From: Gonapodya prolifera JEL478
Taxonomy: Eukaryota; Monoblepharomycota; Monoblepharidomycetes; Monoblepharidales; Gonapodyaceae
Direction of reading: 5' to 3'
Length of the DNA: 64,000 bases
Assembly: GCA_001574975.1 (NCBI GenBank)
Contig: KQ965827.1
Coordinates: forward strand, 122,214 to 186,213
Notes under the pieces: model-generated
Seen by the model: only the letters and a program-made list of their open reading frames with translations
Databases searched by the model: none
Told to the model about the DNA's origin: nothing
Made by a program: the position numbers and the translations under genes
Shown here: in pieces, positions 5,119-50,776 of the stretch
Numbering within the stretch: the first letter of the stretch is position 1
Layout: each line of letters begins with the position of its first letter

Positions 5119-6742
5119 CTAAGACTGTTGACCGTGATACCCTGGTGCGTACTGTTGTCCAAAGCCGCCAGGAGCAGGCTGTCCAAAGCTCGCAGAGCTT
5201 CCGGGGCCATATGTAATGTTCCCAGGGGCGAAGGATGACGTATCTGATTCTCCACTCACGAAGCCGCTTGGAGCCGGCCCCTTGACATCCTGGATACCGT
5301 CCGCCACCCACAACCGCTTCGTATTGACAGTCACAGACACGGATCGCGCAGGCACTGCGTGCGATTGTATCGCCATTGATTGATTGGAAAATTCAGCAAG
5401 GTTGATTCCCCCCGATGGGAAATAGTAGGATGCGGGGTTACTACCTAGAGATGTTACGTGCGATGGAGTATTGCCAGCCAATGCAGACACTACAAAATAT
5501 GGGAAGGATCTCAGCACTTTTCAACTACAGTTGAAGATGCATGGTATCACCCACTTGGAACAAAGCCCTGAACATTAGGGGCAGACGTTGGCGATGTGGT
5601 CGAGGCATACGCCCAACCGTCGTTGTAGGCCTCAAGAACCAAAATCTGGTCCCCGAGTTTGAGCGAAAGTTCGTCCGCATTCTGTGCGGGGTAATCGAAA
5701 ATCGCAGTGAACACTGCATTCACAGGTCTCCCTCCAGTTCCTCCGGGTCCCATTGTCGGAAGCACAAAGCTCTGGCCTTGAAGAGTACTCTGGGTTGAGC
5801 TGGAGTAGTGGCTGGGCGGCGGATCAAATCTCTGCGTCAGATTGTCACTTGGATAAGTGGGGTTTTCACCCAGCAGCGGTCGCTTGAGTCCCTGTGAGCC
5901 ATCGTCTACCAGTCCTGGGGTCTCCTTGGTCGACCTTTTTCCTTTGCGGACACAGTAAATGCCCAGCCCGATGAGCACTAGTACAACTACCCCACCGACC
6001 GCGATTCCAACAATGGCGCCGAGAGAAAGCCCACCAGCGGCAGGCGGACTACCACCACAGCCGTTGAGAGAATCGGTCCACGTGACTCCGTCGTCACAGG
6101 TTTGACCACATCGGAGTACTTTCGTTGCCGTATCGTAGCGACAGCCTTGTTAATCGAATATTAGAGGTCGATAGGTTCCGCAATGGACTAGATGGGCGCG
6201 GAACTCGACTCACCTATGCTGGAGTTGTACTTTGGCGGGCCACATTGTGAGCTTCCACATGTCCCTCCATCACACAACGACTAAGAACAATTTTCTAAGT
6301 TCAGGATCATACATTCACGCCGTTATTCAGGAGGAAGCTCACCGCGGTGTATCCGAACCTTCAAGGGATCCCACACAACTGTTAGCTGGTGAAAGACAAC
6401 ACGCCCACACCCGTCAATTCGACGGAACTCACGGATTCACTTTCGCATTGCACGCCCTGGTGACGAAAACGTCCCAATCGGAGACGAAAAGTAAGCCAAA
6501 GCGGTCTTCATGTGTGGGGCTTCACGCACATCCACCGGGTCTCTCCACCCCTCTGGTCGATCGACCCACCAGTAGCAGTATCCGTTGAGACATGACCTGT
6601 AGGCGGCGTTGGGAGCCGAAAACGCATTCCCTTGTGTGCATACATCATTCGATGTGCAGGCGACCAGGTTGGCCAAGGACGGGGGGGCAAGGAGGGCGAT
6701 GGTTGCCGCCGCAACAACGAAGGTGGAAGATTGAAGGCGCAT
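5119..6742 (-). CDS. Single-pass membrane protein with Cys-rich ectodomain and cytosolic SH3 domain
   Basis: The start at 6742 gives a classical signal peptide (MRLQSSTFVVAAATIALLAP then SLA). A Cys-rich ectodomain follows (VACTSNDVCTQGN, SCLNGYCYW, LCDGGTCGSSQC, CGQTCDDGVTW) and then the membrane segment LGAIVGIAVGGVVVLVLIGL with a basic stop (CVRKGKR). The cytosolic part has an SH3 domain (VFTAIFDYPAQNADELSLKLG, ending GFVPSG) and a Gly/Pro/Gln-rich tail ending GYHGQQS. The topology recalls yeast Fus1 (O-glycosylated ectodomain, one membrane helix, C-terminal SH3) more than the four-helix Sho1. The ligand or wall component bound by the ectodomain is unknown. One exon junction in the ectodomain (about 6290-6560) is unresolved. 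It is head to tail with the gene upstream on the minus strand. Confidence 0.75.
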
Positions 6743-6908
6743 GGCGGGTGGCGGGAGAATGGTTGACTCGGGAAAGAAGAGAGGGTGTGGCTGTGGTGAT
6801 GCGTTCTCTTGATGTGTGGACACAAACACCGCCCCCGCCAGGCAGGAGCATACTTGTCCCCCTTTCCTCTTTCAAAAAAGCAGCTAAAAATTGCACAGTG
6901 ACCTAACA

Positions 6909-43392: not shown

Positions 43393-44205
43393 TCACGGTC
43401 CCCCACACGCTTTGATAATTGAAACCTCTAAAGCGTGGGCGAGTCCTTGAGACTTATCAGTCGGTCCCACCTGGCTCTGGATTGTTGCTTCATTCGGAGC
43501 AGCTGCAAGTCCGAGCGTACTCGCAGCGGCGCGGACCAAGAGGGACAAGGTGCACGCCGTCGAGAGGAACGAGATGAGGTTAATTTGGTATGCGGGATCC
43601 CCTGATGCGGCTGCACCCAGAGCGGGAAGATGTGGGAGAATGGTGGAGTTGGTGAGCGCAAGAAGGGCGAGGTATGAGTCGGGTACGGACGCGGCAGCCG
43701 CATTTTCTGCGTCCATTTTGGGTTCAGTTTTGGAATCCGCAGTCGAAGTTTCAACTTCCTGCACATCATGAACCACGATCCGCGCGAAAGGCATTGAGGT
43801 AAATGCTGGTGCTAGTACTCGCCCCAAGCACCGTGCCGCCTCCTTGCTGAAGGCATCCCATTGTGGGAGACTGACAGGCTCTTGCCTGTAACCCCAAATG
43901 TCGTCCTCGTGCACCTCACCCTCTTCTTCATCTCCAGTCGGGGCGCCTCCTCTAGAAGTTGCAGTAACACTCAGTTCGGCGACCGCTCTTCTTGCAAGCT
44001 CAGCAACGCTCGCAACAACTGCCACTTGAGTTTCTCTGGTGCCTGTTGCGCATAGCCGGGGGAGAGCGCTGGCAAATATCTCGGATGTTTTGTGAAGACG
44101 TACGACGTCCCGATCCGCCCACAGTCGGGCGAAAAAGGAGCGGACGACAGATGGATTTGAAAAGTCGATTCCATCAAGGTCATCCTTGTTCATCAAGGTA
44201 GTCAT
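43393..44205 (-). CDS. Helical protein or N-terminal exon of the Ala-rich solenoid gene
   Basis: Starts MTTLMNKDDLDGIDFSNPSV at 44205. It has an acidic patch (GDEEEGEVHEDDIWGY) and leucine/alanine-rich helices (DSYLALLALTNSTILPHLPA, LISFLSTACTLSLLVRAAAS). The frame ends a few codons past a GTGAGT donor (GGACC|GTGAGT, about 43402), so it very probably splices onward rather than ending in ACGGP. The next gene frame downstream on the same strand has the same composition, so I favour one gene of roughly 1450 residues spanning 39539-44205. If independent, it is a 270-residue protein of unknown function. Confidence 0.5.
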   Translation of the reverse strand: MTTLMNKDDLDGIDFSNPSVVRSFFARLWADRDVVRLHKTSEIFASALPRLCATGTRETQVAVVASVAELARRAVAELSVTATSRGGAPTGDEEEGEVHEDDIWGYRQEPVSLPQWDAFSKEAARCLGRVLAPAFTSMPFARIVVHDVQEVETSTADSKTEPKMDAENAAAASVPDSYLALLALTNSTILPHLPALGAAASGDPAYQINLISFLSTACTLSLLVRAAASTLGLAAAPNEATIQSQVGPTDKSQGLAHALEVSIIKACGGP

Positions 44206-45520
44206 TGAAATTGTCACCCTCGTACGGTTTCCGTTCAATTAAATCAGTATCGTGCCCAGAAGGAGCTCAGACGGAGTCCCATCATGGTCCGTACAGGCAC
44301 CCGGATTCAATTGAAGTTTCAGTGTTTCCTATCGGAACTGGCATGGCACACAAACCGTCGGTTGACATAATCTCTATCTTTCCCTCAAAATTTTTTGTCT
44401 GCCACCATGAATCCATTCATATGGCTCACGAAAGCTCCCAACAGTTGGACTCGTCTATGACGTGGCTTTTCGGCCACTGAATTAATGCAAAAACATGCAA
44501 CCGTTTGGACCAAGGAATTTGAAGTTTTGCGCCCTTTTGGCGAATTGCGAATTTTCTTGAACTTCAGTCTTTTTGGTGAAATAGTACAATTGCGATTTTA
44601 CATGTGTTTAGGTGCAATCCCTGGTAGGAGACTGTCAACATCGGATTGTGCGGCACTCATCAGAAATGACCTCGGTTTCAAGTGCAACTGTGTCTTATCT
44701 GACACGTCGCAGCTCAAAGCTTCTTCTATGCATGCTGTGAGCTCCTCGCCGATCATACTCGCCCTGTCTGTCCGTCAGAATCGACGGCACTTCATGTACT
44801 CTGTGTTCGGACTTCGGTGTTCCCGTTGCGGACAGACAGGAGGAAAACTCCAGGAGAGATTTGACCAACTAGCTAAGACATATTCTTTCCGCAAGGCGCA
44901 ATCTTTGTGACGCGATACTTCCAGTGGGGTTGTCTCCCTTGGCCGAAAAGCAAGCAACTAGAAATATGAAAATCCGAAAGAGAGAAGTTTTCCAATTTCT
45001 CGCAAATCTCTAAAAACATGAAAACGGTGAAAGGCAAGAAAAGATGAAAGCTAGCGAGATATTTCGCGTGGGCTTTTTGTAAAGTTATGCCTGGCCGAAA
45101 AGCAATGGGGCAAATGGGGCACTCGTCTAGATTCATCTTCGAGAACTGGAATTTCAACGAAATTGTGAATCACGGCAATAATTTGAATCGCGTCTCATAG
45201 TCGAACATATCGGTACCTTGAGATCACTGTGCTGGAGTGAGCCAACTTTGGAGGTTCGCCACACAAATTTGGACGAATTTGGTCGTCCGGACGTCATCGC
45301 CGATGTCCAATAGGAGTACTCGGGGCATTTGAAAACTGGAAGAAGGTATGCCAGCGGATCTTTTCCGTGGACTAAATGGCAAAATCGGTTGGCATGTAAT
45401 ATCGGACCCTTTCTCGTGTGTGTCAGGGTAAAGCTACGGAGGCACCGCGTCGTTTTCCTCCGTCTCCAACCCACCACCTGTCAAACGCCATCGTCCCATC
45501 AAAACCCGTCGGATTGGCGG
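44206..45520. other. Gene-free stretch
   Basis: About 1.3 kb between divergent genes. A 141-codon plus frame at 44485-44910 and short minus frames are present, without motifs or splice support. The 13-mer GGCCGAAAAGCAA occurs twice (near 44940 and 45093). Probably two promoters plus spacer. Confidence 0.5.
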
Positions 45521-48448
45521 ATGGACTCCCCCGTCGCCGCTTTCCGGCCGCCGCGAGAGCCCGATTCGCGAGCTCAACCTTCCTTGACATCTCCCGTTGC
45601 GCCCGTCTTTCGGACAAGCAATCTCCGCTATTCCAGCGGAAATGGGAGCCGGGGAGCGACAATCAAGCTTGCTCTCGTTGTTTTCGCTCTTGCCGCAGGT
45701 GCAGGTGCAGCTCCGGCCTACCGACGTGAGTAACGCCCGCCCGGTACTCGGAACATCGCCATTCCCGGTCCCTGACCTGGTCCCTATTCACGGTGGACGA
45801 AAAGCCTGTTTGCTTTGGCATTGGCGATTATTCGGAGCTTTACCTTTAAATTTCCTGTTTTATCCTCATCGTAGATAACTTGTTCTCGAGGAACACGGCG
45901 TGCACCACAAGTGACCAGTGCGTGGCGACTTTGGGACAACACGAAATGTGGCGGTTTTGTGGGACAGATGGATTGTGTCATATACAATGCGAGGTGTGTT
46001 CCCTCCTTTTCGTCTCCTCTGTCTGAACGCTTTCAACCTTGAGCAACCCTAAAACATGACCATGTTCACATAACCATCTCAATGCCTACAGACGGGATTT
46101 GTGGAATGTAATAATGCGTGTGCTTCAATATGCAACCTCCAATCTCTCAGTACTGCCTCAAGTGAGTGTGCACGAACAAAGTTTAGGTCCACTCCAGTTC
46201 TGATAATGATTTTCCTTATGCTCCAATCATCCCGCTAAACGTGTCCACTCCATTGCGCGTACTTTGTTGTTTCAAAGTCGTAACCTCTCCGTCTCCACCT
46301 CCAGAGCTGTCCAACCCCTCACCCCCTCCGTCCGTACAACCCTCTCCCCAACCCCCATCCCCGTCACCACCCCCACCAGCGTCCTCTCCTCCTGCAATAT
46401 CAACCATAAATCAAATAATATCACCAGGGCCAGCTGCTCCAAGCGCCATTCCGCCGTTAGAAGCATCCACAACGACTGCTACGACATCTACAAGCGCTCT
46501 CTCTCAGGTCACGAGTACTCCAGCCATCAAGAACATGGTAAGTTGCACTTTTGCTAAAGGCTGCGCTGTCTAAATCCCTGTTGATCGCGCACTGATTTGG
46601 AACGTGTGAACAGACCATTGGAGTTGCCCTCCGTCTTATTTCGCCGTCGTTCACAAGCGCTTCCCTAAATTCACCTTCTATAGTGGGCTGCAGCGCCACA
46701 TCCTGCCATCTTTATTCTTCAGGAGCTTTGAACGGGACTTATGATGTCTTTGTTTACATTTGTGCGGGGGCAACTTTCCTGAACCTCCAAGGAACCTCAC
46801 TTTCCACCACTTCTTCGTGCACCGGATACCAGCTTCAAGCATTTTCCTCACTACTGTCCAACGCATCAGTTACGCCCAGCACGGCTCTCTGCTTGGGGAA
46901 TCCAGCTGGAGGAAGCGCGTCATTGTTGCCCTGCACTGCGAACTTCCAGGCAACGTCGGCGACTTTGATCACATTAATAGGACCGAACGCCGATGGGACA
47001 GTGGCCGTGCGTACAGCAGGGACGACACAGACTTGCTTACAGAGTGAGACAAGCTCTTCTGGTGGCACTGGGGTGAGATATTCTTTCCTTTTTCGTGCTC
47101 AGTTCGCGCCCTCTGATTCCGGTAATCTCTGGCTCTACAGGTCGGCGATGTCGTCACGTTCAGCACATGTGACGCACGTAATGGAACTTGGAAGGCACAG
47201 CAATTGTAAGAAATTTGCCCGAACAGCAAAACATTGCCTGTCTCTGACGTGATGAAATCAAAATACTCCAGCGTGCTACCTGCGTCACAAACGACTTCCT
47301 CCAAGCCCACCGCCACCTCGTCAGCCGGATCTCTTCCGTCTGACAACGGGGGTGCAGGACTTTCAATCCCCGCGTTGATTGGAATCATCGCTGGTGCTGT
47401 GCTGTTTGTGGTGCTCGTGACTTGCTTTTTCGCCTGCACGTCGAGTCGGAAAAGCGATGTGGACGCTTTTGAGCGACCTGCTCGTTCTCGACCATGGCCT
47501 CAGTTCGTTCGAGACAACACCAGCTCCATCCGCTTTGGATCTCGGAAAGGCTCACAAGAAGAGGGAATCATTGTTGCAGCTGCAGCCGCTGAGAATGACG
47601 TGTCGGCGCCATTGGAGCCAGACTCAATGTCTCTATCACCTCCTGTTCCGAAGAGGAAATCCTCCAAGATTACAGGCAGACGTCCGTTCTGGTCTAATGG
47701 AACGTCTCAAGGAACGGAAATGAGCAACGCCACAGCACAAACATCGACGGTAACCCTCACCCCGTCGGCGCCAATTACAGCGACTGAAGATCACCTAATG
47801 CACGCGACCACCTCCACTCCAGAACGTTCATCGCTACTGCAAGAGGAGGAGGAGCCTGGCCGACCGGAGACACCACCACTTGTGCGCCCATCATCTCGAC
47901 ATCACCTGCAAGATCCTCGAAGAGACAGCCTCACACTGGATCAGATTCTCGCTGCTCGACCGCCAGATCAATCCGCCCGACTCTGGGCTCAAGTTGCCGC
48001 GCAATCCTACGCCATACCCATGCCTCATCTCCCTTCTCCGTACTTCACCCCCGAGCCTTCAGAAGATCAAAGGACCGCCTCAGCTATTGGAATGCGTACG
48101 CCATCACGCACACCGACATCTCTACCACCGACGCCTTCTCCGGGACAAACCCCGGAGGAAAGGCGTCTCATAGAATTAATGGCCTGGAGGTGCTCAGTGT
48201 GCGGTTGTAATGGAACGCAAACTAATGTCCGACGGGTGAAGAAGGATCGCTCGGTAAGTTCTCTTGCACGCGTGATGAATCGGGCAACCGCGCTCATGTG
48301 ACGCCCATAGGAACGCATATGCGAGAACTGCTTTGAGCAGCGTCGACAACGTCAGCGACAGAGGGACTCCACAAGGATCCGGCGTTCAACTGAAGAATCG
48401 CGCACAAGCTCACATGAACATGACATGAGCGAAGGCAACGACTATTAA
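45521..48448 (+). CDS. Single-pass membrane protein: Cys-rich, Pro-rich ectodomain and cytosolic GATA-like zinc finger
   Basis: Start MDSPVAAFRPPREPDSRAQP. An internal hydrophobic segment (TIKLALVVFALAAGAGAAP) acts as signal sequence or anchor. The ectodomain has Cys-rich exons (NTACTTSDQCVATLG, FCGTDGLCHIQCE, GFVECNNACASICNL), a Pro/Ser block (QPSPQPPSPSPPPPASSPP), then a domain with CSATSCHLYSSG, TALCLGNPAGGSASLLPC and TFSTCDARNGTWKAQQF, weakly like a ricin-B fold. A Ser/Thr stalk leads to the membrane helix IPALIGIIAGAVLFVVLVTC. The long cytosolic tail ends in WRCSVCGCNGTQTNVRR then KKDRS|ERICENCFEQRRQR. That is C-x2-C-x20-C-x2-C, spliced in phase across a 55-base intron and followed by a basic stretch, as in GATA fingers of the wider spacing class. 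The combination is unusual; see findings. Confidence 0.75.
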
Positions 48449-48887
48449 ACGCCACCGTCTTCCACGCAAAATCAGCTTTATTTTTCCACGTCAGCCTTCG
48501 ATTTCTACGACTCTCTCGGTCACACCACTCACATTTTTTGTCACGTTTGGTCAAACTCACAATCACAGACACGCTCTTCGTCACTCATCCACTCACACAC
48601 TCACTTCAACATCCACTCACACACTCTTACACACACTCTCTCTCTCTCTGAAAATTCACTCTCGCTTTCAAACACACTCACACACATTCACACATTTACA
48701 TATTCACGCATCCGACTCACACGATGACTTTCAGATGACTTTCACTCGCTAAGTCTCTGCCCAAATCTCAAGAATGCACCATACACGCTTTCACCTCTTT
48801 CTACCAAAACACGAAAAAAACACCACAAATTCAATAGAACTATGTAACGTTATTACTATTATGTATCTTTATTATCTATCTATAGAC
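48449..48887. repeat. CA/CT-rich low-complexity tract between convergent genes
   Basis: From about 48550 to 48725 the plus strand is dominated by ACTCACAC-type and CTCTCTCT steps, with no G-rich interruptions. The rest of the gap (to 48887) is AT-rich. It lies between the convergent ends of the membrane protein gene and guanine deaminase. No gene seen. Confidence 0.8.
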
Positions 48888-50776
48888 TCAGACAATCTTC
48901 CTTCCCTTCACCCAAACGGACTCCGTGTTCCGATCATCACCAAGAAACAAGTACTTCTCAAACAATGCCGCCAGATGGTCGTGCTCAAAGACACGAAGTG
49001 GTCCTTTTACGGTGGGGTTCACCAGCACAGCGTCGAAATCTTTCCCCACGGTCAAGTTTCCAATCGTGTCCTCCAGCCCCATGACCTGCGCACCGCCCAT
49101 CGTTGCAAGATAAAACGCTTCGGGAACGCTCAGCGGCGCAACGGGATGGGATTTGTGCGAGTTTATGGACACCACTTTGGAGCATGTTATGCTCTGGCGG
49201 ATCGCGTCCAGCATCGAGGGCGCGTAGCCGCCGGCAACGTCCGTCCCGAGACTACCATCCAGGTTCCGTAAAAGCATGAGCAAACTTAATGCGTGCATAG
49301 GAGCCTAAAAAGAGCTTTGTCGTACCTTATTTTAATGCCCATTTTGATCATCTTGCGAACGGGCGCCATCCCACTGCCCAACGAGAAGTTGGAATTCGCA
49401 CAGTGCGAGATTCCCACCCCGCGATCGCGCGTGAGCGCCAATTCGGTGTCTGTCAGGTGGACGGCGTGCGCCTGTATTGTGCGGGACGTGTACAGCCCAA
49501 AGTGGTCGTAGGTCGCTGCGCGTGGCGTAAGTTCGGTTCAAATGGTGCTAACGTGCCGCTTCGCACGCGTGAAGGGGGGACTCAACGCTCAACGGTCACT
49601 CACCGGCGTACCCGTCCAGCGATGGGTGCAGCTCTTGCACCCACGCGATCTCGTCCTTGTTCTCGCTGATGTGGCTCTGCACGGGCAAGTCATGTTCTCT
49701 TGCCAGCCGGCCAAGTACGTCCATGAGCTCCGGGGAACATGTGGGTACGAACCGCGGGGTGAGGATCGGGGTGAGGAGGGAGTTGTGGCGTTTGACGGAT
49801 TCGGGGGCGCACAGGTAGTCGATGAAGTCCTTTGTGGATGAGATGGAGGATGCGGTCGTTTCGCACAGGATTGGAGGCGAGTTGCGGTCCCTGTGTGAGG
49901 TGTTACACATAGGTGCGGGTGGTTTTGGGGTGGGCGAGGGCTTACATGTTCACCTTGCCCACGAATGCCCGCTGTCCTTTCCGCTCGATGATGTCGGCCA
50001 AAATCTTGGAGCTCTCGAGGTGAATCGTGCCAAAGTAGCTGGCTGTCGAACACTTCCGTCACCCGCCGGTCAAAAATCGTTTTTGAACGAGCACAATCAC
50101 ACACCTGTCGTCGTCCCTGCACTTATGTGCGTCTCGACGACTTTCTCGTATACATCGCGCGCGAAGTCCTGGTCGGAAAATTTGGCCTCGAACGGGAACG
50201 TGTAGGTCTGCAACCAGTCCAGTAGCGTCAGGTCCATTCCCGTCCCCGTGAACACATACTGCGGCGCGTGCGTGTGGGTGTCGACAAACCCCGGGATGAG
50301 AAAATGGGTCGAGGGGGCCACGATGACCTGTGGACACGGGGTGGACGTTGTACAACCGCAACGCAAAAGTGCAGTGTGTTCCAAGTGTACACCACGACGC
50401 GCTGAGAAAAGCACGACACACGGACCTTATCTGGTGCAAACCCCCACGTATTTGCGAGCTCTGCGATCGCCTCGCCGACGAGGGATGTGTCGTCCAGTAG
50501 GAAGCCCGTTGCCCCGTTTCCCACATCCTCGACAAATGCAATCTTCCCCGCCCGCGTGACTCCGATCAGCCCGTTTTCGACCGCATCCACCTTTGTCGGC
50601 GCCACCGAGTGCACAAATGCGGTGGCGATCACAAACGCGATTCTGTCGGCGTCCTCAGTCGAGCTGGCGTCCGGGGAAGTCGACGCAGCGTCGAGCGAGC
50701 GCGTAGAGAGCATCAATGGTGCGACTGGTGGGCGTGCGACGGTCCCGATCGTGGGTTTGTCCGGGCGCGGTATCAT
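48888..50776 (-). CDS. GUD1: Guanine deaminase
   Basis: Minus-strand, about six exons. I take MIPRPDKPTIGT at 50776 as start; ATGs at 50836 and 50713 are in frame too. The N-terminal strand FVHSVAPTKVDAVENGLIGV precedes the metal-binding motif FLIPGFVDTHTHAPQYVFTG. Further on are LLDWLQTYTFPFEAKFSD, ILCETTASS, LPVQSHISENKDEIAWV, AHAVHLTDTELALTRDRGV, ISHCANSNFSLGSGMAPV and LGTDVAGGYAPSMLDAIRQS, which contains the zinc-binding Asp. The protein ends SVWVKGRKIV. It hydrolyses guanine to xanthine and ammonia in purine salvage or catabolism; cytosolic. All amidohydrolase ligands expected for the family are present. Confidence 0.92.

Follow-up and report, generated by a model that had tools for sequence, protein, structure and literature searches.

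Fus1 and Sho1 are fungal examples of surface proteins whose cytosolic part contains an SH3 domain. Little is known of the surface receptors of early-diverging fungi. Gamma-secretase, an enzyme with many substrates, is retained in early-diverging fungal lineages and has been lost in Dikarya; to our knowledge, no substrate of it is known in early-diverging fungi. Putative membrane-bound GATA factors carrying one predicted helix have been reported from Populus and some other plants, in a study that makes no mention of an ectodomain like the one described below (PMC8367991).

The locus considered here lies in a 64-kb stretch of DNA, the whole of which is referred to as the window. A first-pass annotation had described its product as a membrane-anchored protein with a GATA-like zinc finger in the cytosolic tail, for which it knew of no described fungal example. 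The bare combination of a membrane helix with a GATA domain is already precedented in plants (PMC8367991). For fungi, a literature search of incomplete coverage found no surface protein combining an SH3 domain with a GATA-like finger.

Gene model and predicted layout

Hand splicing and translation gave a predicted model (Table 1) in which a single reading frame of 2271 nt encodes the protein; all seven introns run from GT to AG, measure 57-149 nt and are compatible in phase. Rfam returned no match within 44000-50000. That ectodomain, helix and finger belong to one polypeptide, as first proposed, is borne out by this single frame and by the paralogues described below. It is very improbable that the model wrongly splices two genes together, one for a secreted or wall protein and the other for an intracellular protein with the finger: a crude codon score separates the exons weakly from other frames, and exon 8 fails it, but all splice phases match and the paralogues share both the parts and their order, in exons under constraint. 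Since the paralogues carry the Cys module, the membrane helix and the finger in that order, homology indicates that the predicted architecture is no chance fusion.

Table 1. Features of the predicted gene and its product (window coordinates).
Feature	Position	Strand	Description
Gene	45521-48448	+	8 exons, 756 aa; GT-AG introns, matching phases, single open frame
Exon 1	45521-45725	+	45-aa leader, then hydrophobic signal segment ATIKLALVVFALAAGAGAAPA (hydropathy)
Exon 2	45875-45993	+	Part of Cys module
Exon 3	46092-46161	+	Part of Cys module
Cys module (exons 2-3 with the intron between)	45875-46161	+	CTTSDQC..RFCGTDGLCHIQCETGFVEC..C..C
Exon 4	46305-46537	+	Within exons 4-6 block
Exon 5	46614-47072	+	Within exons 4-6 block
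Exon 6	47141-47205	+	Within exons 4-6 block
Exons 4-6 block	46305-47205	+	Pro/Ser/Thr-rich stalk and Cys-containing ectodomain
Exon 7	47272-48253	+	Remaining stalk, membrane helix ALIGIIAGAVLFVVLVTCFFAC, basic stop-transfer SSRK (hydropathy)
Exon 7, tail part	47272-48253	+	Pro-rich tail with PPVPKR, then first half of finger (motif scan)
Intron inside finger	48254-48310	+	57 nt; every paralogue has an intron here, to within one codon
Exon 8	48311-48448	+	Second half of finger ERICENC, basic FEQRRQRQRQR, stop

The protein is made up, in order, of a signal segment, a Cys module, a Pro/Ser/Thr-rich ectodomain, one membrane helix and a tail of 319 residues. Hydropathy places a likely signal segment at residues of about 46-64, behind an unusually long leader, and a clear membrane helix at about 414-437, with the strongest 19-mer starting at 419 (mean hydropathy 2.88); no further segment of the 756-residue protein rises above 1.3. 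We infer a type I single-pass protein located at the surface. The topology originally put forward, with a Cys- and Pro-rich ectodomain, one helix and a tail, agrees with this profile and with the joint conservation of helix and finger in the paralogues. Within the ectodomain, exons 4-6 matched no Pfam family, no second copy of exons 5-6 was found in the genome, and a fold prediction for exon 5 made without an alignment was uninformative (pLDDT 36). The tail is long and rich in Ser and Pro in the stretch leading up to the finger, and a motif scan identified in it a single class II SH3-ligand motif, PPVPKR, at residue 507. Pfam gave no match to an SH3 domain in the window protein. Alignment of the tail with those of the paralogues is confined to the finger.

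Relatives elsewhere in the genome

Searching the genome (47.6 Mb, 207 contigs) with the finger returned matches at five other loci, on contigs C22 and C23, at 49-64% identity. In four of these (L025, L026, L027 and L029), a Cys module and a membrane helix are followed by an SH3-like region and, directly behind it, the finger, whilst the fifth (L028) survives as a decayed remnant. The gene models of the four were built by hand; for L027 and L029 they leave out the first exon, which is uncertain, and L026 was read segment by segment. In all four, a phase-0 intron interrupts the finger within one codon of its place in the window gene. Their SH3-like region is sub-threshold in Pfam, the SH3_1 match in L025 being weak and under the cut-off (16.3 bits, E 0.0076). 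The window gene departs from this arrangement in having the finger without an SH3-like domain ahead of it. Scored with an HMM built from the fingers of the paralogues, its own finger reached 64.6 bits; the best of 2000 shuffles with fixed Cys reached 19.7.

The N-terminal module has a wider distribution. The window protein conforms to a six-Cys pattern, C-x4/5-C...RxC...C...C..G. An HMM made from 11 other modules gave it 36.3 bits, a score that none of 2000 Cys-fixed shuffles equalled (best, 18.6). About ten further loci in the genome have the module, in several cases followed by a membrane helix; locus C131 combines it with a helix and an SH3-like region, and no finger was found there. Given this locus and the helices at other Cys-module loci, ectodomain, helix and tail would form the common frame, and the finger looks like a tail module confined to a subset of a wider surface-protein family. 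By these sequence comparisons, the window gene is a member of that putatively lineage-specific family. No relatives were present in viral contigs.

Duplicate pairs among the paralogues (L025/L026 and L027/L029; about 78-86% DNA identity, introns included) allowed selection to be estimated, dN/dS being drawn from these pairs as the window gene lacks a close duplicate. The finger exons of both pairs showed dN of 0-0.008 against dS of 0.35-0.53, indicative of strong purifying selection, and the exons for the Cys module and the SH3-like region were under similarly strong constraint. The linker exon, which encodes the helix, was looser (dN 0.062, dS 0.426 for L027/L029). The low dN of finger and Cys-module exons argues that selection has kept both ectodomain and finger in the paralogues.

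Several observations extend beyond the finger genes. Contigs C22 and C23 have several duplicated Cys-module genes in common, at about 78-89% DNA identity and with changed orientation, a pattern suggestive either of an ancient segmental duplication or of homologous segments that have diverged. Within the window itself, about 40 kb from the finger gene, a separate gene at 5550-6871 on the minus strand encodes a protein in which a clear SH3 domain (42 bits) accompanies a signal peptide, Cys motifs and a membrane helix. The genome as a whole is rich in SH3: six-frame translation gave more than 90 SH3_1 matches above the cut-off, and 150 candidates were scored.

The finger and its faint likeness to GATA

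The window finger reads CSVC-x20-CENC, that is C-x2-C-x20-C-x2-C, and is followed by the Arg/Gln-rich FEQRRQRQRQR. As claimed in the first-pass annotation, it is completed by the last splice, at a phase-0 junction between KKDRS and ERICENC; an uninterrupted CX2CX17-20CX2C was absent from all six frames of the 64-kb window. The finger probably binds zinc. Retention of the last intron would bring in an in-frame TGA and end the protein ahead of the second Cys pair, so that the finger could be turned off by splicing. The corresponding intron holds an in-frame stop in L025 and L026 and none in L029.

Membership of the GATA family (PF00320, curated cut-off 26.8 bits) was not supported. The window finger had no Pfam match and the spliced window protein no GATA match in Pfam, and the protein was missing from the genome's 16 GATA matches, which came from an exon-by-exon search that a split finger could escape. 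The paralogue fingers scored 16.4, 16.0 and 14.7 bits against the Pfam model (E 0.007-0.023), 10-12 bits under the cut-off; GATA was nonetheless the top Pfam match for the first two and the second for the other, and 23 Cys-fixed shuffles of the finger drew no GATA match from Pfam. The spacing C-x2-C-x17-20-C-x2-C is kept, with x20 in the window finger and in all paralogues. The GATA core T-P-x-W-R is replaced by TNVRR, TEVRR or TPVRR, with no Trp in the window or paralogue fingers, and C-N-A-C-G by C-x-x-C-F (CENCF in the window, CDSCF or CDECF in the paralogues); one of the genome's own GATA sequences reads TPLWRR..LCNACG for comparison. We therefore reject the finger as a member of the GATA zinc fingers, since it falls below the Pfam cut-off and is without both the Trp and the CNAC. 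A home-made GATA HMM, built from three sequences of the same genome, was also discarded: 5-31% of Cys-fixed shuffles scored as well as the real fingers. Because it failed to separate shuffles, the faint resemblance to GATA derives from the Pfam model alone.

Thus, the "GATA-type DNA-binding module" of the first-pass annotation is not supported by the PF00320 search that the annotation had itself proposed for the tail; what stands is the x20 spacing and the faint resemblance of the paralogues, without membership. The annotation would have yielded to a Cys motif that failed GATA or zinc-finger profiles and lacked conservation in orthologues. The finger does fail such profiles, but it is conserved in the paralogues. 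It may share a distant ancestor with GATA.

Searching the PDB with a profile of the finger produced no significant match, the best over the full length being the plant factor GATA18 (14.7 bits, E 0.25), with the ClpX zinc-binding domain at 13.9 bits (E 0.44). The ClpX domain has a similar C-x2-C-G...VR...IC-[DE]-x-C pattern, and DUF7685 equals the GATA score for one paralogue. These scores bring in a treble-clef module for protein binding or dimerisation, for instance of the ClpX type, unrelated to GATA and serving solely the self-association of tails. We consider this explanation unlikely, as every score concerned is insignificant and, for two of the three paralogue fingers, GATA is the top match. 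DUF7685 was set aside as the finger's true family; its matches in the genome looked like chance and no mention of it was found in the literature.

Proposed role and comparison with known systems

The reading that we favor, at about even odds (roughly 0.5), is that of a lineage-specific surface sensor and adaptor whose finger would hold a cytosolic partner or an acidic lipid. Outside the cell, the conserved Cys module on its Ser/Thr/Pro stalk would probably serve to bind or sense material of the wall or the environment. The cytosolic tail would be an adaptor, and through its finger surface signals may be passed on into the cell. In those relatives that have a finger, an SH3-like domain adjoins a four-cysteine zinc finger of divergent type (treble-clef or GATA-like); in the window member, which has no such domain, the Ser/Pro-rich tail with its SH3-ligand motif runs up to the finger. 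Finger and basic extension would most likely retain the partner, or the lipid, at the membrane. The SH3-like regions of the paralogues, the C131 locus, the gene at 5550-6871 and the PPVPKR of the window tail all lend support to an adaptor. For the window gene the argument is carried over from the paralogues, because the gene is without an SH3-like domain of its own.

The first-pass annotation proposed instead, on condition that the tail is released, a receptor and transcription factor in one chain. Such a protein would be shed on binding its ligand and then cut by gamma-secretase or another intramembrane protease, so that the tail would enter the nucleus and bind DNA via the GATA-like finger and basic extension. 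The genome encodes presenilin (best exon 137.5 bits), nicastrin (matches of 29.0 and 25.1 bits, above the cut-off) and a radial spoke protein, which together point to a flagellated organism with gamma-secretase parts; from the presence of the presenilin and nicastrin genes, release of the tail by gamma-secretase is possible. In keeping with a nuclear role, GATA is the first or second Pfam match of the paralogue fingers, with none from the shuffles, and a plant GATA factor heads the PDB matches, albeit not significantly. The basic stretch behind the finger, like the KRK and KKDR patches, would also be expected of a DNA-binding or nuclear protein. Conversely, the paralogue fingers lie more than 10 bits under the GATA cut-off and the window finger has no match, Trp and C-N-A-C are missing, an SH3-like domain adjoins the finger in the paralogues, and a gamma-secretase with so many substrates is weak evidence for any one of them. 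The SH3-like neighbor fits an adaptor tail as well as it does a transcription factor. We regard such a receptor as unlikely, and as less likely than the sensor and adaptor. The broader proposition, that flagellated fungi evolved surface receptors whose gamma-secretase-released tails regulate genes through a diverged, GATA-derived finger in a Notch-like logic, we regard as improbable.

The family supplies named candidate substrates of gamma-secretase whose tail module is under constraint. Should the tail prove to be freed and to bind DNA, a direct pathway from surface to gene would exist in fungi; if not, an adaptor-type tail of SH3-like region and four-cysteine finger would characterize a surface-protein family of which we found no description.

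Set beside known systems, the window protein resembles GATA factors (PF00320) in its C-x2-C-x20-C-x2-C spacing, which falls within the class IV range CX2CX17-20CX2C, and in the basic stretch behind the finger; it differs in its sub-threshold score, in the missing Trp and CNAC, in its signal segment and Cys-module ectodomain and, through its paralogues, in the SH3-like neighbor of the finger. With the plant membrane-bound GATA factors (PMC8367991) it shares the one membrane helix. Like Notch, SREBP/Sre1 and the plant factors NTL6 and bZIP28, it is a single chain in which a membrane helix accompanies a module that may bind nucleic acid, and gamma-secretase genes are present in its genome; Pfam detects no Notch or SREBP domain in it. 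Compared with Fus1 and Sho1, the finger is an addition and the window member has no SH3 domain, the likeness considered here being one of layout. That layout, an ectodomain followed by a membrane helix and, in the paralogues, by a tail with an SH3 or SH3-like domain, is common to Fus1, Sho1, the neighboring gene at 5550-6871 and the family described here.
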